From NCBI GenBank assembly GCA_017559135.1, contig JAFYSZ010000006.1:62001-126000 (forward strand): 64,000 nucleotides of DNA, read 5' to 3'. The notes beneath the pieces were generated by a model. That model was not told where the DNA came from. It saw nothing but the letters and a program-made list of their open reading frames with translations, and made no database searches. This stretch comes from Bacteroidales bacterium. GTDB taxonomy: Bacteria; Bacteroidota; Bacteroidia; Bacteroidales; P3. Shown here one piece after another: positions 13,372 to 48,992 of the stretch; within the stretch, counting starts at the first letter, position 1; every line of letters begins with the position of its first letter. The position numbers and the translations under genes were made by a program.

Positions 13372-14484
13372 ATGAAAAAAGCAGTATTTATTTTAGTTGC
13401 AGTTTTGCTTTATGGTACAATTGTAAACTCACAAAACATATCAGATACTTTATTTAATGATTATTTTTTGCCTGATTATATAGATATAGAGAATTGTGGC
13501 TCTACTATATATAGAGATTCTTCAACTTCTACGGTTGCGTTGAAAAGGGGACATTATTACTTTGGTAGTACAGGATGGCTTTATACAACAACAACTTCTG
13601 AGGGTATTCTTGATAGAGCACAGCCTTGTTATACAGATACTTTATTGACTGTAAAAGGAATTGCAATAGGGGTTAACTCTTTTTTTAATTCCTATAATTA
13701 TTCAAAAGTACAACATATTATTTGTACTCATGAAACTTTATGGCTTGATGAATGGATAGATCTATATAATTCCACACCAAAAGGTAAATTGAAGTTAATG
13801 AATGAGAACTTAAATAGAGAAATTATATCAGTTGATATTGATACTAACTTTTATGTAGTAAATACACCAGAATATGCTTATTTGGAATTTGATTTTGATA
13901 GAAATGTTAATGTAAATGGTTTGTTTTATATAGTGGAAGATATAACGAATACTTCTACTCGTTTACTTGATATAGTATTTACTCAATGTAATTTTAATTG
14001 GTTATCATTGGTACGTACTGCAGAAGATACTATAGCAACATCTTGGATAGAATGGAATCATCATCCTTTTAATAATCTTACTGATGGACCTATTGGACAA
14101 AATAGTTATTATATGTATTATTCAGATGGAGGGTTTAGTGCTATTCCTAATGATTGTCAAATGTATATGTTCCCTATTTTTGCGGAAACAGACACTACCT
14201 TAGGCGATGGCACGTATCCTGATACTAATGTTTGTCTTTATGATGTAAATGTTGATAGATATTCCAACGTTTACCCAAATCCTGCAAGTGATATAGTAAC
14301 AGTGCAATCATCTTTCAAAGTAAGAGAAATAGAAATCCATAATGCCTTAGGACAAGTTGTGCTAAGGAAACAAGGCAATCAAAACATTGAAACAATAGAT
14401 GTGTCAAATCTTCAAAGCGGTGCTTACATCGTAAGAATAAAGACACAACGAGGCTTTGCAAACAAAAAGATTCTGATAGAATAA
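13372..14484 (+). CDS. Secreted protein with T9SS type A sorting domain (paralogue 1)
   Basis: A 370-residue exported protein of unknown function. A signal peptide (about 1-20, MKKAVFILVAVLLYGTIVNS) leads into a body of about 265 residues. The C-terminal ~75 residues form a type A T9SS sorting domain (VYPNPASDIVTVQ, HNALGQVVLRKQG, GAYIVRIKT, final KKILIE). Its closest relative in the window is the product of 16081-17214. The two share motifs such as LDRAQPCYTDTLLTVKGIAIGVN, and the last ~120 residues are almost the same. A member of the 21-bp repeat family overlaps its promoter. The body has no domain I recognise; it is probably a beta-rich surface protein. Confidence 0.85.
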   Translation: MKKAVFILVAVLLYGTIVNSQNISDTLFNDYFLPDYIDIENCGSTIYRDSSTSTVALKRGHYYFGSTGWLYTTTTSEGILDRAQPCYTDTLLTVKGIAIGVNSFFNSYNYSKVQHIICTHETLWLDEWIDLYNSTPKGKLKLMNENLNREIISVDIDTNFYVVNTPEYAYLEFDFDRNVNVNGLFYIVEDITNTSTRLLDIVFTQCNFNWLSLVRTAEDTIATSWIEWNHHPFNNLTDGPIGQNSYYMYYSDGGFSAIPNDCQMYMFPIFAETDTTLGDGTYPDTNVCLYDVNVDRYSNVYPNPASDIVTVQSSFKVREIEIHNALGQVVLRKQGNQNIETIDVSNLQSGAYIVRIKTQRGFANKKILIE

Positions 14485-14749: not shown

Positions 14750-16063
14750 ATGAAAAGAAGTATAATATTACTATTGGTATTACTGCCAATAGTCGCATTT
14801 TCACAAATGCAACACATAATAAGTCAAGGAAATACCACCACAATACAAAGAATTTTAGGAGGTAGTAATACAATCGATTCAAGTTTAATAAAGATTAGAA
14901 ACATAGATAAGACTGATTTGCTTGTTTCTATGCCAGATTCTTCATTTATTCAAACAGTATTTGCTCATTCTACAATGGGAACAAATGCTACAACACTATT
15001 AACTTTTCCGCATTTAAAGATTTATGATTTTAAAATATTTGCAGGGAATATTTATTTTTGTGGACAAGATAGTAGTAGTGGAGTGGGATTTATCTCTTGG
15101 ATGTCGATAAGTAATTTGCTTTCTGCAAACCCAGTAGCATTTACTGTGCAAAAAATAACAAATCCGATAAAGCCAAAAGCTGTAACAGACTTAGAAGTTT
15201 ATAAATGGGAAGATAGCATACATGTTGTCGCATTAGCAGATAGTAGATACTTAATAGATATGAACACATCTAACCCAAGTACATATCAAATAATGCGACA
15301 AAATATTAGTCAGCCATTTAAAAAATTATCCGTTGGTAAAGATAAAATCATTACATTAGGTAAAGATAGTGATACATCACTTGTAATAACCGCTTTTGAC
15401 AAAGGAAATATTTCTCAATATATGTATAGAGGATTTACACATCCAGAGTTAAGGTACAATAAATATGTCTTAGAAAATTCGATGACTAATGAAGATATAT
15501 TTACCTTTGGTTATACTCATAGAGAATACACATCTAATAATTATTACAAAACAGATTTTGCTACATTTGAAGTAACAAATTGGATACACATAATAAATAA
15601 ACAATATTTGGAAATCCCTGATGGAAAATTAGAACCAATAGATTTAGAGTTTTGCCAAGAAGATAGCACCTTATTGTATTTGGCAGGAGGGAATTATGGA
15701 CATGATGAAATATTCCCAATAAAACATCTTGTGCATAATGACTATGTGATAAATACCATACAACCTAATGACACAATACAATATCCTATTAAGCAATATA
15801 ATAGCATTATCAGATACGATAACTATTATTTTGCTGCTTTTGCAAAAGACACACCGTCAAGTAGAGGACTTATATTTGATTGTAAAAGAGATGTTTCTTC
15901 ATTCCTAAATTGTGCAAGTTCAAATACAGGAAATGTTATAAATACTTTCTTTTTAGGGTACACATCTCTTAATGCTAATTATACATATATGTTAGGTCAA
16001 CAAGACACAATAGTATTAAAGCATTCGTATATATCAAATTCATACACAATTCAATGTCAGTAA
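14750..16063 (+). CDS. Secreted protein of unknown function
   Basis: A 437-residue exported protein that I do not recognise. The signal peptide (about 1-19) ends at VAFSQ. The body is rich in short beta-strand-like segments with aromatic and Asp/Ser turns and could be a beta-propeller, but I cannot count blades with confidence. It has no T9SS sorting domain and no lipobox, although both neighbours are T9SS proteins. It has a textbook Shine-Dalgarno sequence (AGGAGG, 14737-14742, seven bases before ATG), which is unusual in Bacteroidota. The gap to the next coding start at 16081 is 17 bases, so the two may be cotranscribed. Confidence 0.8.
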   Translation: MKRSIILLLVLLPIVAFSQMQHIISQGNTTTIQRILGGSNTIDSSLIKIRNIDKTDLLVSMPDSSFIQTVFAHSTMGTNATTLLTFPHLKIYDFKIFAGNIYFCGQDSSSGVGFISWMSISNLLSANPVAFTVQKITNPIKPKAVTDLEVYKWEDSIHVVALADSRYLIDMNTSNPSTYQIMRQNISQPFKKLSVGKDKIITLGKDSDTSLVITAFDKGNISQYMYRGFTHPELRYNKYVLENSMTNEDIFTFGYTHREYTSNNYYKTDFATFEVTNWIHIINKQYLEIPDGKLEPIDLEFCQEDSTLLYLAGGNYGHDEIFPIKHLVHNDYVINTIQPNDTIQYPIKQYNSIIRYDNYYFAAFAKDTPSSRGLIFDCKRDVSSFLNCASSNTGNVINTFFLGYTSLNANYTYMLGQQDTIVLKHSYISNSYTIQCQ

Positions 16064-16080
16064 TTTTAAAATTTAAGAAT

Positions 16081-17214
16081 ATGAAAAAAGTATTATTTAT
16101 TTTAGCATTTATTATGCTTACATCTTTTGTAGTGAAATCGCAAAACACTGAAAATTATTTTTTACCCGATTTTATAGATGTAGAATATTGTAGCTCTTTA
16201 TCATTTTATGACACAACAAGTATTGATACACAGACATATATGGCAAGGGATCATTATTATTTTTATGAAACAGGAAGAGCTCTGGGCATTAATCAACGTC
16301 TTGATAGGGCACAACCTTGTTATACAGATACTCTATTAACAGTTCAAGGCATTGCAATAGGCGTAAATAATCGTGTTTTTATAAAGAGTTTACAAAACGC
16401 AGCTTTCCCTGTACCTTCTGTGAGAGTAGCTATGATAGCAGGGGATGGTAATCCAATAGATATTAACTTTTATAGTTCTACTCCAAAAGGCAAATTGAGG
16501 TTAATGAATAACACTTTAAATAGAGAAATCATTTCCGTTGATATTGACACGAATTTTGTTCTTCAAGAATCAGGGTTATACTCTTACATTGAATATTATT
16601 TCCCTACTCCTGTAAATGTAAATGGCTTATTTTATATAGTAGAGGACATAACCACAAATTCAACCCAAATACCTCGTATGGTGTTTTCTGAATGTAATTT
16701 TGCATATCCATCATTAGTAAGGACAGCAGAAAATACGGCAGGATACACAATAGGCACTACTTGGATGCAATGGAGTGAACATCCTTACAATCAAGATTTG
16801 GAAGGAGAGTATTACTCTTCAAGATATCGTTATACCGATTTATATAATATAAGTCATGCGTTAGATTCACCAATTCCAAACACTTGTCAAATGTATATGT
16901 TCCCTATTTTTGCAGAAACAGATACTACCTTAGGCGATGGCACGTATCCCGATACTAATGTATGTCTTTACGATGTAAATGTTGATAGATATTCTAATAT
17001 TTACCCAAATCCTGCAAAGGATATAGTAACAGTGCAATCATCTTTCAAGGTAAGAGAAATAGAAATACATAATGCCTTAGGACAAGTTGTGCTAAGAAAA
17101 CAAGGTAGTCAAAACATTGAAACAATAGATGTGTCAAACCTTCAAAGCGGTGCTTACATCGTAAGAATAAAGACACAACGAGGCTTTGCAAACAAAAAGA
17201 TTTTGATAGAATAA
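16081..17214 (+). CDS. Secreted protein with T9SS type A sorting domain (paralogue 2)
   Basis: A 377-residue exported protein, paralogous to the product of 13372-14484. ATG 16081 is preferred because it begins a clean signal peptide (MKKVLFILAFIMLTSFVVKSQ); an in-frame start at 16054 would overlap the upstream gene and spoil it. The two paralogues share LDRAQPCYTDTLLTV, STPKGKLRLMN-like and NVNGLFYIVEDIT motifs. From CQMYMFPIFAETDTTLGDG to the end they are nearly the same, including the T9SS sorting domain ending KKILIE. The middle parts differ more. A strong bidirectional terminator follows. Function unknown; the pair probably arose by duplication around the 14750 gene. Confidence 0.85.
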   Translation: MKKVLFILAFIMLTSFVVKSQNTENYFLPDFIDVEYCSSLSFYDTTSIDTQTYMARDHYYFYETGRALGINQRLDRAQPCYTDTLLTVQGIAIGVNNRVFIKSLQNAAFPVPSVRVAMIAGDGNPIDINFYSSTPKGKLRLMNNTLNREIISVDIDTNFVLQESGLYSYIEYYFPTPVNVNGLFYIVEDITTNSTQIPRMVFSECNFAYPSLVRTAENTAGYTIGTTWMQWSEHPYNQDLEGEYYSSRYRYTDLYNISHALDSPIPNTCQMYMFPIFAETDTTLGDGTYPDTNVCLYDVNVDRYSNIYPNPAKDIVTVQSSFKVREIEIHNALGQVVLRKQGSQNIETIDVSNLQSGAYIVRIKTQRGFANKKILIE

Positions 17215-27763: not shown

Positions 27764-28495
27764 ATGGAAACGCTGATATTATTGATTGAAACTGCAACAG
27801 AAAGATGCTCTTGTGCCTTAGCAAACGAGCAAGGTATTGTTTCGTATGCAGAAAGCAATGAACCAAATTCTCATTCTGCTAAATTATCACTATTGATTGA
27901 TGGTTTATTTACTCAAACTAAGCATTCTTACTCTGATTTATCGGCAATAGCAGTTTCTATTGGACCAGGTTCTTATACGGGATTAAGAATTGGTGTCAGC
28001 ACAGCAAAGGGTTTAGCATACGCTTTGGATATTCCTGTGATTGCTTTAAAGACTTGTGAAATTTTTGCAGCACCTGTACTTGAAAAAAATCCCGATGCTT
28101 GTTGCGTTGCAATGATTGATGCAAGAAGAATGGAGGCTTACGCAAGTATTTTCCATAATAAAAAAGAGATAAAGCCTTGTTCAGCAGATATTTTAGAAGA
28201 AGGAATTTATGAAGAATATCTTTCAGATAAAGAAAATGTGGTTTTTGTCGGAAATTGCTTAGAAAAATTAAAAAAAGTCTATGACTTAGAAAAATATTTC
28301 ATAGACTTAGAAAAATATTCCATAGAGTTAGGAAAATATTTCTTAGACTTTTCTGTGGAATTGAACGCAAAAAATATGCAAGGCTTAGCATTTGAAAAAT
28401 ATAATAAAAAAGAATTTGTAGATGTTGCTTACTTTGAACCTTTTTATTTAAAAAATTTTGAAGCAGCACCATCAAAAGTAAAAGGATTACGTTAG
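27764..28495 (+). CDS. tsaB: tRNA t6A synthesis protein TsaB with a heptad insertion
   Basis: Partner of TsaD (with TsaE) in making threonylcarbamoyl-adenosine at tRNA position 37. The N-terminal actin-like fold shows LLIETATERCSCAL and the hallmark SIGPGSYTGLRIGVSTAKGLA (the SGPGSFTGLR motif). At 243 residues it is near family length, but residues about 172-195 consist of an odd repeat: YDLEKYF, IDLEKYS, IELGKYF, LDFSVEL. The DNA there (28279-28350) is a 21-bp tandem array of the intergenic AT repeat family. It is in frame because 21 bases are seven codons. It follows the end of the rlmI-like gene by 49 bases, and trmB overlaps its stop codon. Confidence 0.9.
   Translation: METLILLIETATERCSCALANEQGIVSYAESNEPNSHSAKLSLLIDGLFTQTKHSYSDLSAIAVSIGPGSYTGLRIGVSTAKGLAYALDIPVIALKTCEIFAAPVLEKNPDACCVAMIDARRMEAYASIFHNKKEIKPCSADILEEGIYEEYLSDKENVVFVGNCLEKLKKVYDLEKYFIDLEKYSIELGKYFLDFSVELNAKNMQGLAFEKYNKKEFVDVAYFEPFYLKNFEAAPSKVKGLR
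28279..28350. repeat. 21-bp AT repeat array inside tsaB
   Basis: C-starting units at 28279 (CTATGACTTAG), 28300 (CATAGACTTAG), 28321 (CATAGAGTTAG) and 28342 (CTTAGACTT) are exactly 21 bases apart, with A/T cores AAAAATATTT between. This is the same unit as the intergenic array at 1331-1390 (CATAGAGTTAG). It is translated without a frame change. Confidence 0.85.
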
Positions 28496-34582: not shown

Positions 34583-35287
34583 TTAAACATTTTTACTTGT
34601 CTTTACTTTAAATTCTTTTTCTACTACTATCAATTTTTCTTCTCCTAACTCCTTTGCAAAATTTATTATCTCTTTTGCTTTTATTATGAATTTAGGAGTC
34701 TCTTCTATTATTATCTCTCTATCACTCCTATAAGTCTGTTTTATAAACTTTGTTTCGCTCTCTATTTTAGGAGTTGCAAGTTCTGTTTCTATGAATGCAA
34801 ATTGATGAATTATAGTGTCATTTTCGTCCTCTATTGAGAAGTAAAAATTTTTCTTTGTTTTAGAAATTTTTTTCTTTGTTTTAGAAAAATATTTCTTTGA
34901 ATTATTTTCTTTTTTCTTAGTTTTATTTTGAGTAATCAAAACAGGCGTTTTTCCTTCTATCACAACCTCTTTTTTTAATAGTGGTTTGATTGCAAAAAAT
35001 AGCAATAACACAGCGGCAATTCCACAAGCCCACTTCACGTATCTTGGAGCAAAAACAATCTTTCTTGCCTTTTTGCCTGTTGCAAGAGCGAAAAGTTCGT
35101 CCTTGTCCTCAAAAACTATGTTCAAAGGTTTGCTTAACTTCTCGCATTCTTGATATGAAGAAAGCATTTGCTTGTATTGAGGATTTTTTTCAAGAAAAGC
35201 CTCAACCTCTTTACGCTCTTGATTGCTCAAATTACCTTCTGCGTAATCAAAAAGAATAATTTCAATATTTTCTTTACTTATTTTCAT
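34583..35287 (-). CDS. Anti-sigma factor with single membrane helix and heptad insertion
   Basis: A 234-residue inner-membrane protein that probably holds the ECF sigma factor inactive. The N-terminal cytoplasmic domain (LFDYAEGNLSNQERKEVEAFLEKNPQYKQM) matches the anti-sigma fold without a zinc HxxxCxxC motif. One membrane segment lies at about 84-102. The periplasmic tail is Lys-rich and holds a short repeat: SKKYFSK, TKKKISK, TKKNFYF. The DNA at 34853-34899 is another 21-bp member of the AT repeat family, here read in frame. The gene overlaps the sigma gene by 14 bases. It could be a membrane-anchored regulator without proteolytic control; no protease site can be read. Confidence 0.82.
   Translation of the reverse strand: MKISKENIEIILFDYAEGNLSNQERKEVEAFLEKNPQYKQMLSSYQECEKLSKPLNIVFEDKDELFALATGKKARKIVFAPRYVKWACGIAAVLLLFFAIKPLLKKEVVIEGKTPVLITQNKTKKKENNSKKYFSKTKKKISKTKKNFYFSIEDENDTIIHQFAFIETELATPKIESETKFIKQTYRSDREIIIEETPKFIIKAKEIINFAKELGEEKLIVVEKEFKVKTSKNV
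34853..34899. repeat. 21-bp AT repeat array inside the anti-sigma gene
   Basis: CTTTG sites at 34853, 34874 and 34895 are exactly 21 bases apart; between them lie TTTTAGAAATTTTTTT and TTTTAGAAAAATATTT. This is the same unit as the arrays at 37197 and 62583. The minus-strand gene translates it as seven-residue repeats. Confidence 0.85.
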
Positions 35288-35932: not shown

Positions 35933-37189
35933 ATGAAAAGAATTGATAGAAACAAGTATTTGAATGAGTTAATCTCATTAAAGAATAATGGAATGATAAA
36001 AGTAATAACAGGGATGCGAAGATGTGGAAAATCTTTTCTTCTTTTTGATATTTTTACTTCTTATCTAAAAGAAAACGGTGTTGATTCTGAACATATAATT
36101 ACTGTGAATTTAGAGGATTATAAAAGTAAGGCTTTGAGAAATCCAGATAATCTATATTCTTATGTTGAAAACAAAATTGTAGATGAGGGTTTGTATTATA
36201 TTTTGTTAGATGAAATTCAAATGCTTAATGAATTTGAAGATGTGTTGAATGGATTTTTGAAAATGAAGAATGTAGATATTTACGTCACAGGAAGTAATGC
36301 AAGGTTTTTATCAAAGGATGTTATTACGGAATTTAGGGGTCGGGGTTTTGAAATAAAGATGTATCCTTTAAGTTTTAAGGAATATTTTTCTGTTTCTTCG
36401 AGTTCTGTTTCTTCTGCCTTGAATGAATATATGCTTTATGGAGGTTTGCCTCAGGTATTAACATATGAGAAAGAAGAACAGAAAATAAAGTATTTGAAAT
36501 CTTTGTTTGAGGAAACTTATATTAAGGATATTAAAGAGCGTTACAAGATTAAAAAAGATGGGGATTTGGAAGAACTTATAAATATATTGGCTTCGGGAAT
36601 TGGTGCTTTATCTAATCCTAATAAATTGGCGAATACGTTTAAGAGTGAAAAGAAATCAAATATATCATACGATACAATAAAGGATTATATTGAGTATTTG
36701 TGCGATTCTTTCCTTATAGAAAAATCTACTCGCTATGATATAAAAGGAAAGAAGTATATAAATTCCCCTTTTAAGTATTATTTTATGGATTTAGGTCTTC
36801 GTAATGCTCGACTAAATTTTCGTCAGTATGAGAAAAGTCATTTGATGGAGAATGTAATCTATAATGAATTGCGATTAAGAGGCTTTAATGTTGATGTAGG
36901 TGTTGTTCCTATTGTTTTAAAAAATGAAAATGGTGGACAACAACGCACAAATTTAGAAGTGGATTTTGTATGTAATTTAGGAAATCAGCGATATTATATA
37001 CAATCTGCTTATCGTATGGAAACAGAGGAAAAGATTAAACAAGAAAGAGCTTCATTACTCAAAGTTGATGATTCGTTTAAGAAAATTATTATAATAGGAG
37101 AGGAAATTCCTATAATAAGAGATGAGAACGGAATCATAACAATGAGCATTTATAACTTTTTATTAAACGAGAATTTTTTGAATTTCTAA
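35933..37189 (+). CDS. DUF4143 domain AAA ATPase
   Basis: A 418-residue P-loop ATPase of the AAA_14/DUF4143 family, common in many copies in anaerobic bacteria and of unsettled role. Walker A is GMRRCGKS (27-34), Walker B is ILLDEIQ (about 90-95), and VTGSNARFLS is a sensor-like segment. The PLSFKEYF motif follows, and the DUF4143 domain fills about 190-370. It includes YFMDLGLRNARLNFRQYE and EVDFVCN, which resemble a nuclease-like EVDF core. ATG 35933 is used; 35909 lies in the operator. Its promoter is flanked by twin palindromes, suggesting tight control. A broken second copy is at 2126-3098. The gene stands alone. Confidence 0.88.
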   Translation: MKRIDRNKYLNELISLKNNGMIKVITGMRRCGKSFLLFDIFTSYLKENGVDSEHIITVNLEDYKSKALRNPDNLYSYVENKIVDEGLYYILLDEIQMLNEFEDVLNGFLKMKNVDIYVTGSNARFLSKDVITEFRGRGFEIKMYPLSFKEYFSVSSSSVSSALNEYMLYGGLPQVLTYEKEEQKIKYLKSLFEETYIKDIKERYKIKKDGDLEELINILASGIGALSNPNKLANTFKSEKKSNISYDTIKDYIEYLCDSFLIEKSTRYDIKGKKYINSPFKYYFMDLGLRNARLNFRQYEKSHLMENVIYNELRLRGFNVDVGVVPIVLKNENGGQQRTNLEVDFVCNLGNQRYYIQSAYRMETEEKIKQERASLLKVDDSFKKIIIIGEEIPIIRDENGIITMSIYNFLLNENFLNF

Positions 37190-37196
37190 TTTTTTT

Positions 37197-37264
37197 CTTT
37201 GTTTTACAAAATTTTTTCTTTATTTTAATTTCTTGAAACAAAGAGTTTTAGAATTTTTTCTTAA
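37197..37264. repeat. 21-bp-period AT repeat array
   Basis: CTTTG (37197) and CTTTA (37218) are 21 bases apart; CAAAG (37239) and CTTAA (37260) are 21 bases apart and continue the same register (37218 to 37239 is also 21). It lies directly after the ATPase stop codon and ~20 bases before the flavodiiron operon promoter. Confidence 0.78.
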
Positions 37265-41216: not shown

Positions 41217-41317
41217 AAAATATTTTAAATGATTATAAATTTTTTTGCGAAGATACAATAAAGAAACGAAAGTGAGCCTTTTTTGCGTTATGATTTTGTA
41301 TTTTATCAACTAAATAG

Positions 41318-41325
41318 TATTTTTG
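41318..41325 (+). promoter_or_regulatory. Promoter -7 element for the PrimPol fusion gene
   Basis: TATTTTTG, then C, lies 26 bases before ATG 41351 and gives a ~18-base leader. It supports ATG 41351 over the TTG at 41330. Confidence 0.6.
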
Positions 41326-41350
41326 CAAGTTGTCTTTAAAAGAAAAATAT

Positions 41351-43780
41351 ATGAGAAACGAATTATATTTATATGCTACTTATTATCAAAGTATGGGCAT
41401 GAATGTGTCACCGATTGAGAAATCAAACTACAAAAAGCCTATTATAGATAATTGGAAACGTTATTTGACTATAAAACAAGAAGAAATATACAATTTTAAT
41501 TGGGAAGATAGTGTTGGGATTGGATTGATTTCAGGATTTAATGACTATCGAGCATTAGATATTGACGAGTTGTATTATTCTTATTACGATAGGAAGGGAA
41601 GAATTGATGATTTTGTTGCAAAATGCCTTGCAATTTTAGGTTTACCACAGGATTATGCTTGGGTGATAGATAGCGGTAGTGGAAGAGGTCTTCATATTAT
41701 TTTCAGAATGAATGATTTTGAATATTCCGAAGAGGTATATTCTTATAGTGCAAAGCGTAGAGAAGAAAGAGAATTATTTAAAAGAATGGAACTTCGTTGG
41801 AAAGCCTTTTTGGTTTTACCACCTTCTCAACACAAAGAGGGCGGAAAGTATCAGTTTCGTAACAATGCGATTCCTGCTTATAAGCCTTACTATGTTAATA
41901 ATGATCATGTATATAATCTTTTAAATTATTTCTGTGGTGATTATCACTTTGAAGAGTGTAATTATAATGGAATGGATTTTAATCTTGTTAGAATTGCAAA
42001 GCAAGTTGCTACTTCTTCGCACGAAAACTGCTATGATGAGGTAGAAGACAATCTTGCGTTTATCAAAGATTGTAAATCAAAAGACGCTTTCAATACAATG
42101 GGAACGTTTTATGTTACTGGAAAAATGGTAGAACTTGATATGAATAAGGCTATCAATTATTTTAATCTTTCAAATAATGATATGTCTCATTTTAATATCG
42201 CTTCTTTGATTTCTATTGGCGTAATTTCTGGCTCGGAGGCTGATATGATGTTTCATTTGACGTTTTGTTCGGATTTTCCTACTGATAAATTGGATTTAGT
42301 CAAAGCAAATTATCAACTTAGAACAGGAAAACTATTTGAGAAATCAGATCAAACAAATAAAACTCAAATATTATTTTTTGACACAGAGGCAACTGGCTTG
42401 CCAGATGACTATGATGAACCAACTACAAATACGGCTAATTGGCCTCGAATAGTGCAATTGTCTTGGATTGTAACGAATGAAAAAGGCGAAAAACTGAAAG
42501 AACAAGATTTTGTAATATATCCCGATGGTTTTACTATATCTAAATCCGCAATTGACTTACATGGAATCACTCTTGAAAAGGCTTATGCAAACGGAAAGCC
42601 TATAAAAGAAGTGATTTCGTTGTTTTTAGAAGATTTTTATCAAGCAAAATATATTGTAGGACACAATATAGCTTTTGATAAGAAGATAATAGGAGCCGAA
42701 CTCGTTAGAATGGGACAAGAAGATGTAATGGAAGAAAAACAATCCTTCTGTACGATGTTGTTAAGTACTAATTATTGTCGCATTCCTGGTTATTACGGAT
42801 ACAAATATCCTAAATTACAAGAATTATATCGCAAATTATTCGGTGTAACCTTTGATGGCGTTCACAATTCTTTTACAGATGTAAATGCAACTGTGAAATG
42901 TTTTTGGGAAATGAATAGAATAGGTTTGATTCCTTTGGAAGAAAATTTAGTAAATTCAGAAAATAAAATTCCAATTATTGACATAAATTTTGATTCAGAA
43001 CAATTAAATTCTCAAAAACCACAAGAAGAAATAGAAATTCCACAAGAAGAGGAGGTAGAAGTAAAAGAAGAAGAACCTATTGTGGAAGAAAAAGTAGAAA
43101 TTGTAGAAGAAATAGAGGAAGAACAAGAAATTATTGAAGAAGTTCCGCAAGAAGAACAAATAACAGAAGAAAATCGAAAGTTTTCTATTAAAGGTGTTGA
43201 TTTTAATATGGTATTTGTAAAAGGGGCTTCGTTTAAAATGGGAGACGGAACTGAAAAAACTATTGGCGATTACTACATTTGTGATACTGCGGTAACACAA
43301 GCCTTATGGATTGCTGTAATGGGAAATAATCCTTCTTGGTATGAGAATGATAATTTCCCTGTTGAGAATATTAGTTGGAACGATGCGAGTGAGTTTGTAA
43401 GACGTCTTAGTGAGATAACAGGTAAAAATTTCCGTATTCCAACAGAAGCAGAATGGGAATTTGCAGCTCGTGGAGGTATTTACTCAAAAGGTTATCAATA
43501 TTCAGGAAGTAATGATTTGGATTGCGTGGCTTGGTATAAGGATAACTCATTAAGATCAACTCATGCAGTGAAAACAAAATTTCCAAACGAATTAGGCTTG
43601 TATGATATGAGCGGAAACGTTTTTGAATGGTGTGATGATTGGATTGATGGACAATATAAAATTCTCAGAGGTGGCTGTTGGGGAAGTGCAGCAAAGGCTT
43701 GCTTGATTACTTATCGTTTTGATTCTTCTCCAAAGACGAAAGGCGGAGACGGAGGTGTGAGAATTGCAATGGATATTTAG
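41351..43780 (+). CDS. PrimPol / DEDDh exonuclease / FGE-like three-domain fusion
   Basis: An 809-residue protein with an arrangement I do not know from a described family. Residues about 1-200 fit a bifunctional primase-polymerase: RALDIDE has the acidic pair Asp70 and Asp72, and SGSGRGLHIIF (about 108-118) is the glycine/histidine motif. A Sel1/TPR-like stretch lies at about 240-275. A DEDDh 3'-5' exonuclease of the DnaQ type covers about 338-525, with Asp344 and Glu346 (FFDTEATGL), Asp443 (GHNIAFD), His505 and Asp510 (VHNSFTDVNAT). A very acidic linker (about 560-608) leads to a formylglycine-generating-enzyme/SUMF1-like domain (about 615-809): IPTEAEWEFAARGG, LYDMSGNVFEWCDDW, LRGGCWG, GGVRIA. 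All catalytic-looking residues of the first two domains are present. It stands alone with its own promoter. A role in DNA repair, replication or defence is only inferred. Confidence 0.8.
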   Translation: MRNELYLYATYYQSMGMNVSPIEKSNYKKPIIDNWKRYLTIKQEEIYNFNWEDSVGIGLISGFNDYRALDIDELYYSYYDRKGRIDDFVAKCLAILGLPQDYAWVIDSGSGRGLHIIFRMNDFEYSEEVYSYSAKRREERELFKRMELRWKAFLVLPPSQHKEGGKYQFRNNAIPAYKPYYVNNDHVYNLLNYFCGDYHFEECNYNGMDFNLVRIAKQVATSSHENCYDEVEDNLAFIKDCKSKDAFNTMGTFYVTGKMVELDMNKAINYFNLSNNDMSHFNIASLISIGVISGSEADMMFHLTFCSDFPTDKLDLVKANYQLRTGKLFEKSDQTNKTQILFFDTEATGLPDDYDEPTTNTANWPRIVQLSWIVTNEKGEKLKEQDFVIYPDGFTISKSAIDLHGITLEKAYANGKPIKEVISLFLEDFYQAKYIVGHNIAFDKKIIGAELVRMGQEDVMEEKQSFCTMLLSTNYCRIPGYYGYKYPKLQELYRKLFGVTFDGVHNSFTDVNATVKCFWEMNRIGLIPLEENLVNSENKIPIIDINFDSEQLNSQKPQEEIEIPQEEEVEVKEEEPIVEEKVEIVEEIEEEQEIIEEVPQEEQITEENRKFSIKGVDFNMVFVKGASFKMGDGTEKTIGDYYICDTAVTQALWIAVMGNNPSWYENDNFPVENISWNDASEFVRRLSEITGKNFRIPTEAEWEFAARGGIYSKGYQYSGSNDLDCVAWYKDNSLRSTHAVKTKFPNELGLYDMSGNVFEWCDDWIDGQYKILRGGCWGSAAKACLITYRFDSSPKTKGGDGGVRIAMDI

Positions 43781-43847: not shown

Positions 43848-45215
43848 ATGAAAAGATTTTTAAAATTAGTAGTTGTAGCATTCGTATTTATTTCAACATT
43901 GCTAATAACAAATGATACATTTGCAAGAAGGTATTCGCGTTCTTACACAAAAAATGTAATAAACAAAACAGCCTACATTATAGAACAAGCATACGACATA
44001 GCCTTTACGTATGATTTTTGGAGTGAGGCCTATCTTTCAAAAGCCGTTTATTATAATGATTACGCATACGATTTATATAGAATGAATTGTCGTAGTGCTG
44101 CTGTTCATTATTCACTAAAAGCTCGTCAATATGCCTTAATGGTTATAGATAATTGCGATGATTATTGGGAATTTTTCTACTTTACTTATTTCGGTTGGAG
44201 TTTTAGTTTTGGATATAATTCAAATTTTGCATACGCAAGCGGATATGCTAACGGATTTTACGATGGATATTTTGCAGCTTATTGCAATCGTCATAATCAT
44301 CATTACGATCCTCATCACCATCACCACAATCCACCTCACGGAAACAAACCTCCACACCACAATCCACACAATGACAATCACGGAAACACAAATCATGGAA
44401 ACGGACACGTAATAGGTAGAGGTGAAACAGGTAGTTTAAATCCTAATGTAGTAACCGGTGGTGGTGTTATAACAAGAAATAGTTTTAAAAACATAAATTA
44501 CGATGAGTATTTCTCTGCTGACGAAATGAAAGATTTGAAAGATGCTCCTAATGAAACAACATTAGATAATAACTTCAAGAAAGAACGTCCAAATGTAGTG
44601 TTTGACAGTAAGGAACTCGCAAAACCAAACAACGAAGTAATAAGACGTAACAAGGAAATTTCAAATGAATACTCTAAGGATAACAAAGACAAAGGTCAAA
44701 CTACAATAACAAAACAAATAGTGCCTGCTTCTGTAATAACTTCTAATAAAGAAATTAAACCAAATCAAGAAACTAAACCTGTAAGTAAGGAAACAAAACC
44801 TGCAAGCAAAGAAACTAAGCCTGCAAGCAAAGAAACAAAACCAATAACTAACAAGGAAGTTAAGCCAAACAAAGAAACTAAACCTGCAAGCAAAGAAACA
44901 AAACCTGCAAGCAAAGAAACAAAACCTGCAAGCAAGGAAACAAAACCTGCAACTAACAAGGAAGTTAAGCCAAACAAAGAAACAAAACCTGCAAGCAAAG
45001 AAACAAAACCTGCAAGCAAGGAAAAAGAAGTGAAATCTAATAAAAGTTCAAAAGATGTAAAGGCTTCAAAAAATAAAACTTCTAATAGATCAAAAGCAAC
45101 ATCAAAAGCATCATCTTCTTCTAAGAAAGCAAATTCTTCAAGTAAGAAAACATCATCTTCTTCTAAGAAAACCACTTCTTCAAGCAAAAAATCGGAAAAG
45201 AAACTTAGCAGATAA
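43848..45215 (+). CDS. Exported low-complexity protein: His-rich region and KETKPAS repeats
   Basis: A 455-residue exported protein of unknown function. The signal peptide (about 1-26) ends NDTFA. A folded-looking region rich in Tyr (about 30-145) is followed by a histidine/asparagine/proline stretch (about 148-185, HHHHHNPPHGNKPPHHNPHN), which could bind metal. The next ~110 residues are charged. From about 300 to 385 runs a tandem seven-residue repeat, KETKPAS, with variants; a seven-residue Ser/Lys repeat (SSSSKKA, NSSSKKT, SSSSKKT) closes the protein. In DNA both repeats have 21-bp units. The Lys-rich tail may bind the cell wall or polyanions. The spacing to the next gene is five bases. 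Confidence 0.75.
   Translation: MKRFLKLVVVAFVFISTLLITNDTFARRYSRSYTKNVINKTAYIIEQAYDIAFTYDFWSEAYLSKAVYYNDYAYDLYRMNCRSAAVHYSLKARQYALMVIDNCDDYWEFFYFTYFGWSFSFGYNSNFAYASGYANGFYDGYFAAYCNRHNHHYDPHHHHHNPPHGNKPPHHNPHNDNHGNTNHGNGHVIGRGETGSLNPNVVTGGGVITRNSFKNINYDEYFSADEMKDLKDAPNETTLDNNFKKERPNVVFDSKELAKPNNEVIRRNKEISNEYSKDNKDKGQTTITKQIVPASVITSNKEIKPNQETKPVSKETKPASKETKPASKETKPITNKEVKPNKETKPASKETKPASKETKPASKETKPATNKEVKPNKETKPASKETKPASKEKEVKSNKSSKDVKASKNKTSNRSKATSKASSSSKKANSSSKKTSSSSKKTTSSSKKSEKKLSR
44783..45024. repeat. In-frame 21-bp tandem repeat (KETKPAS units)
   Basis: Units close to AAAGAAACAAAACCTGCAAG plus one base (21 bp) are repeated about nine times, broken twice by a variant unit encoding TNKEVKPN. 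Adjacent units are nearly identical at the DNA level, as in recent slippage or unequal exchange. The array is likely to vary between strains. Confidence 0.85.
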
Positions 45216-48332: not shown

Positions 48333-48992
48333 ATGAGAAAACAAGAACGTTATTCATTGGTTGCAGAAAAACTCAAAGGCTTATTTCCCGATGCAGACAC
48401 AGAATTGAATTACAATTCACCTTTTCAACTTTTAGTTGCCGTTATTCTTTCAGCACAATGCACCGATAAAAGAGTGAATAGCGTAACACCCGCCCTTTTT
48501 GAAAGGTATCCCGATGTAAAATCAATGTCAGAAAGTTCGCAAGAAGAGATTTATTCATATATAAAAAGCATTTCTTACCCTAATGCAAAGAGTAAAAATC
48601 TAAAAGCAATGGCTGATAGATTGCATACCGTATATAATGACGAAATTCCGAGCGATACCGATCAATTACAAACACTTGCCGGAGTAGGACGCAAGACTGC
48701 AATGGTTATGGCAGCGGTTTTGTATAAAAAAGCCGTGATGCCTGTTGATACACACGTGCATAGAGTTTCTGCTCGCATAGGTCTTACAACTAATGCAAAG
48801 AATGTCTTAGACACAGAACGACAATTACTTTCAAACTTAAAGAAAGAAAACGACCTTGCCGCAATACATCATCAGTTAATATTGTTAGGACGCTATATTT
48901 GCAAGGCTCGAAAACCTTTATGCGAGAATTGCAGCCTAACAATGGAGTGTAAATATTACAGTAGCGAAATAAAAAAGAAAAAAAATAAATAA
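48333..48992 (+). CDS. nth: Endonuclease III
   Basis: A base-excision DNA glycosylase/AP lyase that removes oxidised pyrimidines. The 219-residue protein has the helix-hairpin-helix LQTLAGVGRKTAMVM with the catalytic lysine, the catalytic aspartate in PVDTHVHRVSARIGL, and the iron-sulfur loop at the C-terminus with cysteines spaced C-x6-C-x2-C-x5-C (CKARKPLCENCSLTMEC). All expected residues are present. It follows the EEP-family gene by five bases and precedes a TPR lipoprotein by six. Confidence 0.96.
   Translation: MRKQERYSLVAEKLKGLFPDADTELNYNSPFQLLVAVILSAQCTDKRVNSVTPALFERYPDVKSMSESSQEEIYSYIKSISYPNAKSKNLKAMADRLHTVYNDEIPSDTDQLQTLAGVGRKTAMVMAAVLYKKAVMPVDTHVHRVSARIGLTTNAKNVLDTERQLLSNLKKENDLAAIHHQLILLGRYICKARKPLCENCSLTMECKYYSSEIKKKKNK

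Follow-up and report, generated by a model that had tools for sequence, protein, structure and literature searches.

Immune systems whose effector acts by making DNA are so far mostly those with a reverse transcriptase. PrimPols take part in DNA repair and in the tolerance of damage (PMC4538821, PMC5295015). The PrimPol protein Ppol of Thermus thermophilus HB27 (ICETh2) lowers the uptake of environmental DNA; it is encoded with a helicase and has a proposed Argonaute partner, and neither an exonuclease nor an FGE domain is reported in the accessible part of the source (PMC7693054). CAPPs, an immunity-linked class that is almost confined to Bacteroidetes, work with Cas1-Cas2 and have cas1/cas2 adjacent; some of them are fused to TPR, and the portion of the report available to us describes no fusion to DEDDh or FGE domains (PMC8211822). 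FGE/CLec domains have been proposed as putative invasion sensors; in the DGR-associated examples, an FGE-subtype lectin fold lies C-terminal to an effector or signalling domain, and a PrimPol with an exonuclease is not among the effectors named in the accessible parts of these papers (PMC7159879, PMC10907252).

We identified a gene that combines these domains in the window, i.e., the whole 64,000-nucleotide stretch of DNA from a gut Bacteroidales bacterium that was analyzed. The gene lies at 41351..43780 on the forward strand, as do all of its features given below, starts with ATG, and encodes a protein of 809 aa with the order PrimPol domain, helical region, DEDDh exonuclease, acidic linker, and FGE/C-type-lectin-like domain. 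The preliminary description had recognized this 809-residue frame as a union of three domains, and all three were above the Pfam cut-offs. As far as the available text of the sources goes, Thermus Ppol (PMC7693054) and CAPP (PMC8211822) share the Prim-Pol domain with the window protein; in contrast to the CAPP loci, no cas genes were seen near the window gene or its six relatives described below. The C-terminal position of the FGE domain is the same as in the DGR-type sensors. In the literature searched, in which subscription journals were thinly covered so that the result is weak evidence, we found no described family with the PrimPol-DEDDh-FGE architecture.

An in-frame TTG at 41330 is an unlikely start because it lies near the expected transcription start. 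A putative promoter of the Bacteroidota -33/-7 type, TTTG-N19-TATTTTTG, was located by pattern search and position at 41295..41325, with 25 bp between its end and the ATG, and its -7 part is also retained in a congeneric genome (G140) in which most of the gene is deleted. The earlier statement that the gene has its own promoter thus gained a candidate site, which is plausible by its position only, as the pattern occurs 9 times in the window where chance predicts 4.15, an approximately twofold excess.

The Prim-Pol (AEP) domain occupies aa 1-200 (41351..41950) and matched PF09250 over aa 11-172 with an E-value of 7.4e-10 and 39.9 bits, above the gathering cut-off of 22.8; the lack of a Prim-Pol profile match, named beforehand as a ground for refutation, did not arise. 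Asp70, Asp72 and the SGSGRGLHIIF motif were present as initially read. In particular, D70 and D72 (DxD), S110 and H115 (SGSGRGLH; SxxGxH) and E147 were invariant across eight PrimPol-DEDDh proteins, and E147 is the probable third carboxylate of the Prim-Pol site. The Prim-Pol domain is followed by a fourth region, overlooked in the preliminary description, which is helical and spans aa 201-335 (41951..42355). This region looks Sel1-like by eye but had no Pfam match, and a Sel1 repeat in aa 201-340 found no profile support. AlphaFold models of the full-length protein and of aa 1-340, for which the shallow input alignments held 4 and 2 sequences, reached mean pLDDT values of 30.5 and 29.9, respectively, too low for the models to be used.

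The DEDDh 3'-5' exonuclease domain was found at aa 336-540 (42356..42970), where RNase_T (PF00929) matched aa 342-518 with an E-value of 4e-14 and 53.9 bits against a cut-off of 24.0. All the residues listed earlier for a complete DnaQ-type exonuclease (D344, E346, D443, H505 and D510) were present. By profile, the domain and its motifs are common to Cas2-DEDDh and to the DnaQ/PolC exonucleases (8fy9, 9qpc), whereas the fusion partners differ and the nearest sequences to the window domain are DEDDh proteins from its own family of bacteria, with which it shares 52-57% identity. These family proteins are found on their own or C-terminal to a Sel1 repeat (L024) or to BspA-type LRRs (L017), which shows the exonuclease to be exchanged between architectures. 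The protein at L017 (19-2082), a BspA-type LRR protein with a C-terminal DEDDh exonuclease, is itself an unusual fusion. The very acidic linker was also confirmed: a Glu-rich segment at about aa 541-606 (42971..43168) is 44% identical to the corresponding segment of the full-length orthologue described below.

The FGE-sulfatase/C-type-lectin-fold domain occupies aa 607-809 (43169..43777), and PF03781 matched aa 647-806 with an E-value of 3e-29 and 102.9 bits, over the cut-off of 23.3, in line with the FGE/SUMF1-like domain first assigned to the C-terminus. By profile, the domain belongs to the same family as the formylglycine-generating enzyme SUMF1 (6muj), but the catalytic cysteine pair of that enzyme is not kept: the second Cys aligns with Ala, and the orthologue has Ser in place of the first (CWGSAAKAC in the window protein and SWGGTIKSC in the orthologue). 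Enzymatic FGE activity is therefore unlikely. The closest solved structure was TvpA of Treponema denticola (2y3c, E-value of 2.3e-29), a DGR-diversified lectin-fold protein, whose variable region aligns with the C-terminus of the window FGE domain. This correspondence had gone unnoticed in the initial reading of the sequence; the matching segment, ILRGGCWGSAAKACLITYRFDSSPKTKGGDGGVRIAMDI, lies at 43661..43777 and was defined by alignment with TvpA and with the template repeats of two DGRs from the window's bacterial family (L110 and L115).

Each of these two DGRs comprises a reverse transcriptase, a template repeat and an FGE target, at reverse-strand positions 596-726 and 2281-2411 (L110) and 594-724 and 2282-2412 (L115). 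The mismatches between variable and template repeats fell at template adenines in 16 of 16 and 17 of 17 cases, respectively. An RVT_1 match of some kind was present in 65 of the 190 genomes of the family. Conversely, a profile search of the window genome gave no RVT_1 match, and no template repeat matching the FGE C-terminus was found in that genome; a DGR was thus ruled out there, and the FGE domain is not being diversified at present. Additionally, codons such as GGA, GCA, AAG and TTG in the variable-region-like segment do not fit an NNY pattern derived from AAY, and hence there is no sign of recent DGR action. From this comparison, the window FGE domain is best described as a presumed frozen member of a DGR-diversified sensor family. 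Fusions of FGE domains to TIR and protein-kinase domains also occur in the same bacterial family (L022, L023, L035, L026, L044); their C-termini resemble DGR variable regions, and they may form a sensor-effector set.

Relatives were searched for in sampled genomes of the order (393), the phylum (395) and the class (395), in 244 genomes of the class to which G669 belongs, and in plasmids. Six Bacteroidota proteins of 408-473 aa were found that have a DEDDh or DEDDh-like domain C-terminal to a Prim-Pol domain, with no FGE domain and no counterpart of the helical region; within the class of G669, no PrimPol-DEDDh protein was found beyond that of G669 itself. By Pfam, none of the PrimPol-DEDDh proteins contains a helicase or PriCT domain. 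The DEDDh residues are intact in the window protein (P0001), its orthologue in G141, P0002, P0006 and P0007, while the alignment, judged by eye, showed that several of them were lost in P0003, P0004 and P0005. Because the exonuclease site is degenerate in these three proteins, PrimPol is taken as the constant part of the core, to which the exonuclease appears not to be essential. Domain trees for DEDDh and Prim-Pol had several long branches and resolved little beyond the pairing of the window protein with its orthologue. Prim-Pol proteins of 700-800 aa from other families were set aside as a separate kind, as they have long C-termini that look helicase-like by eye and lie beside tyrosine recombinases. 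A viral origin was also considered and rejected: in IMG/VR, neither the full N-terminal query nor the first Prim-Pol alignment had a relative, and the second alignment had only a distant primase-like match, and GenBank phages gave no Prim-Pol match and only generic DEDDh matches.

The PrimPol-DEDDh core had strong defence neighbours at three of these six loci (P0007, P0005 and P0004) and suggestive ones at the other three. P0007 (G1125) is encoded 274 bp downstream of, and on the same strand as, a complete type III CBASS operon (locus at L088:6040-11010), with E-values of 1.1e-140 for the cyclase, 3.9e-75 for HORMA, 9.6e-129 for TRIP13 and 5.8e-91 for NucC. P0005 (G669) adjoins HsdR (E-value of 0), IetS (1.4e-40), IetA (1.8e-75) and GmrSD/Orf5 (1.7e-178). 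P0004, from the Hymenobacter swuensis plasmid pHsw1, is encoded among a type III MTase and REase, DrmD and a PDC-S68 helicase, in a locus that also holds a TmtA-like protein and a DinG-type helicase. As for the weaker cases, P0006 (G1282) follows a HEPN_AbiU2 gene and has a piece of HsdM 3.3 kb away; P0002 (G539) lies in a region that looks prophage-like by eye, between a weakly DrmC-like PLD protein and an unknown gene; and P0003 (G517) lies near a HEPN_LA2681 protein, on a contig of 5.6 kb. For a control, 20 other positions on these contigs were chosen and the longest frame at each was compared with PADLOC; in this small set of single genes, none reached an E-value of 1e-20 (the best was 2.5e-18), and 17 of the 20 had no match at 1e-10.

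The preliminary description had considered it possible that the protein serves in defence or repair and carries a recognition module, and the neighbours of the relatives, together with the DGR-type FGE domain, now lend this suggestion contextual support. Since its closest relatives lie among anti-virus genes, the window protein probably represents a type of bacterial immune protein that has yet to be described. We give an even chance to its being a stand-alone anti-invader protein directed against phage or foreign DNA. A more specific version is put forward tentatively: the protein may be a sensor-effector immune protein, in which a PrimPol-exonuclease effector is joined to a DGR-type lectin-fold sensor that was fixed after loss of the retroelement, and it may form, with the two-domain relatives, an undescribed defence-associated PrimPol-DEDDh family in Bacteroidota. 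Standing against a defence role, the window gene lies amid housekeeping genes (by eye, PerR-like, rubrerythrin, flavodiiron protein and glucosaminidase genes) with no defence island, and defence islands also gather unrelated genes.

Under the sensor-effector reading, the effector would be a PrimPol that initiates DNA strands on a single-stranded template and is linked in cis with the DEDDh 3'-5' exonuclease, and the sensor would be the C-terminal lectin fold on its flexible acidic linker, of a type that is DGR-diversified in sister lineages and frozen here. The lectin-fold domain would bind an invader protein, and binding would free or position the PrimPol-exonuclease, although this regulatory link between the domains is a guess. 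Priming and trimming would then take place on exposed single-stranded DNA, such as replication forks or incoming single strands, and would yield a duplex cleavable by nucleases or toxic aberrant ends. HsdR, the type III REase and NucC are nucleases of double-stranded DNA. As three of the neighbouring systems use such nucleases, the PrimPol might supply them with substrate by making incoming single strands double-stranded, which is likewise a guess. We infer these steps, as well as the defence role of the window gene itself, from domain content and from the loci of the relatives. If the reading is true, a PrimPol behind a lectin-fold sensor would represent a new effector class, and DGR-type recognition would be tied to DNA metabolism. 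PrimPol-DEDDh would then be a clear gene family for anti-phage testing in Bacteroidota.

Alternatively, the protein could be an enzyme of DNA repair or damage tolerance. Stalled forks would then be re-primed by the PrimPol, proofreading would fall to the exonuclease and the FGE domain would be a docking site for a partner. This role, which we regard as unlikely, agrees with the known function of PrimPols noted above and with the presence of oxidative-stress genes and an endonuclease III-like gene (48333-48992) among the neighbours of the window gene. It also agrees with strong purifying selection on the enzymatic core. Among the 190 genomes of the window's family, only one other full-length protein was found, in the congeneric species RGIG9858 from yak rectum (G141/L045); it is 75% identical overall and 90% identical in the PrimPol domain, and its gene occupies the same locus, flanked by a glucosaminidase gene and a gene for a Lys/Glu-rich repeat protein. 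The FGE fusion is thus confined to two of the genomes searched. Comparison of the two genes gave dN/dS values of 0.05 for the PrimPol domain, 0.07 for the helical region, 0.125 for the DEDDh domain, 0.64 for the linker and 0.23 for the FGE domain, all of them rough, as they come from a single pairwise comparison with high dS (0.8-1.7). The enzymatic half is strongly constrained, and the linker and FGE domain evolve faster; the last 54 FGE residues had a dN/dS of 0.30, a modest contrast with the rest of that domain (p 0.03).

The repair role is opposed by the distribution of the gene in the genus, where it is absent or deleted in four of the six genomes, some of which are incomplete. The site is empty in two congeners (G139 and G142), with no trace of the gene. 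In a third congener (G140), whose flanks are close to those of the window, only the initial codons, MRNELYLYATYYQSMGMNVSPVGK, and the final 13, KGGDGGLRIVMDI, are left in an intergenic region (L052, about 1175-1500); about 2.35 kb is gone, the junction being read from a fragmented assembly. The common ancestor of the window species and those of G141 and G140 probably had the gene, which was then lost in one of the three. This pattern of loss and absence indicates that the gene is accessory and dispensable in the genus. Moreover, the relatives lie in defence loci rather than repair loci, and a repair role leaves the DGR-sensor-type domain without a reason.

A domesticated replication protein of a mobile element, either kept or decaying without a host role, is a still less probable explanation. 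Most of the other Prim-Pol domains that the searches gave from Bacteroidota are in the 700-800 aa primase proteins beside tyrosine recombinases, and among the relatives P0004 is plasmid-borne and P0002 lies in the prophage-like region. However, the lack of helicase and PriCT domains in the PrimPol-DEDDh proteins and the strong constraint on the enzymatic half of the window protein argue against such an origin, and neither a recombinase nor a mobile-element boundary was seen at the window locus. We consider it very unlikely that the protein is a futile-cycle effector, in which polymerase and exonuclease in cis would convert dNTPs to dNMPs after activation by the sensor and so deprive a phage of nucleotides; five of the eight proteins have both active sites intact, but the degenerate exonuclease of the other three means that it cannot be the common mechanism. 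Least probable is a CRISPR adaptation factor, in which the PrimPol would fill prespacers and the DEDDh domain would trim them, two steps performed individually by CAPP and by DnaQ/DEDDh proteins: the PADLOC CRISPR-associated DEDDh profile matched the window exonuclease (E-value of 1.9e-23), Cas1 is encoded elsewhere in the window genome, on contig C8, and CAPPs, according to the accessible text, act with Cas1-Cas2 (PMC8211822), but that profile match is generic to DEDDh nucleases and the loci of the window gene and its six relatives showed no cas gene.

Several other features were observed in the window. The Lys/Glu-rich protein gene adjoining the PrimPol gene contains 21-nt repeats at 44743-45057 that encode KETKPAS units. 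AT-rich direct repeats of the ATTTCATAGAGTTAGAAAAAT type, also with 21-nt spacing, were found at 1318-1399, 28277-28358, 34830-34932 and 37174-37255. Finally, the genes at 13372-14484 and 16054-17214 form a related pair whose C-terminal regions are 93% identical over 300 nt, and this near-identical region resembles a T9SS sorting domain.
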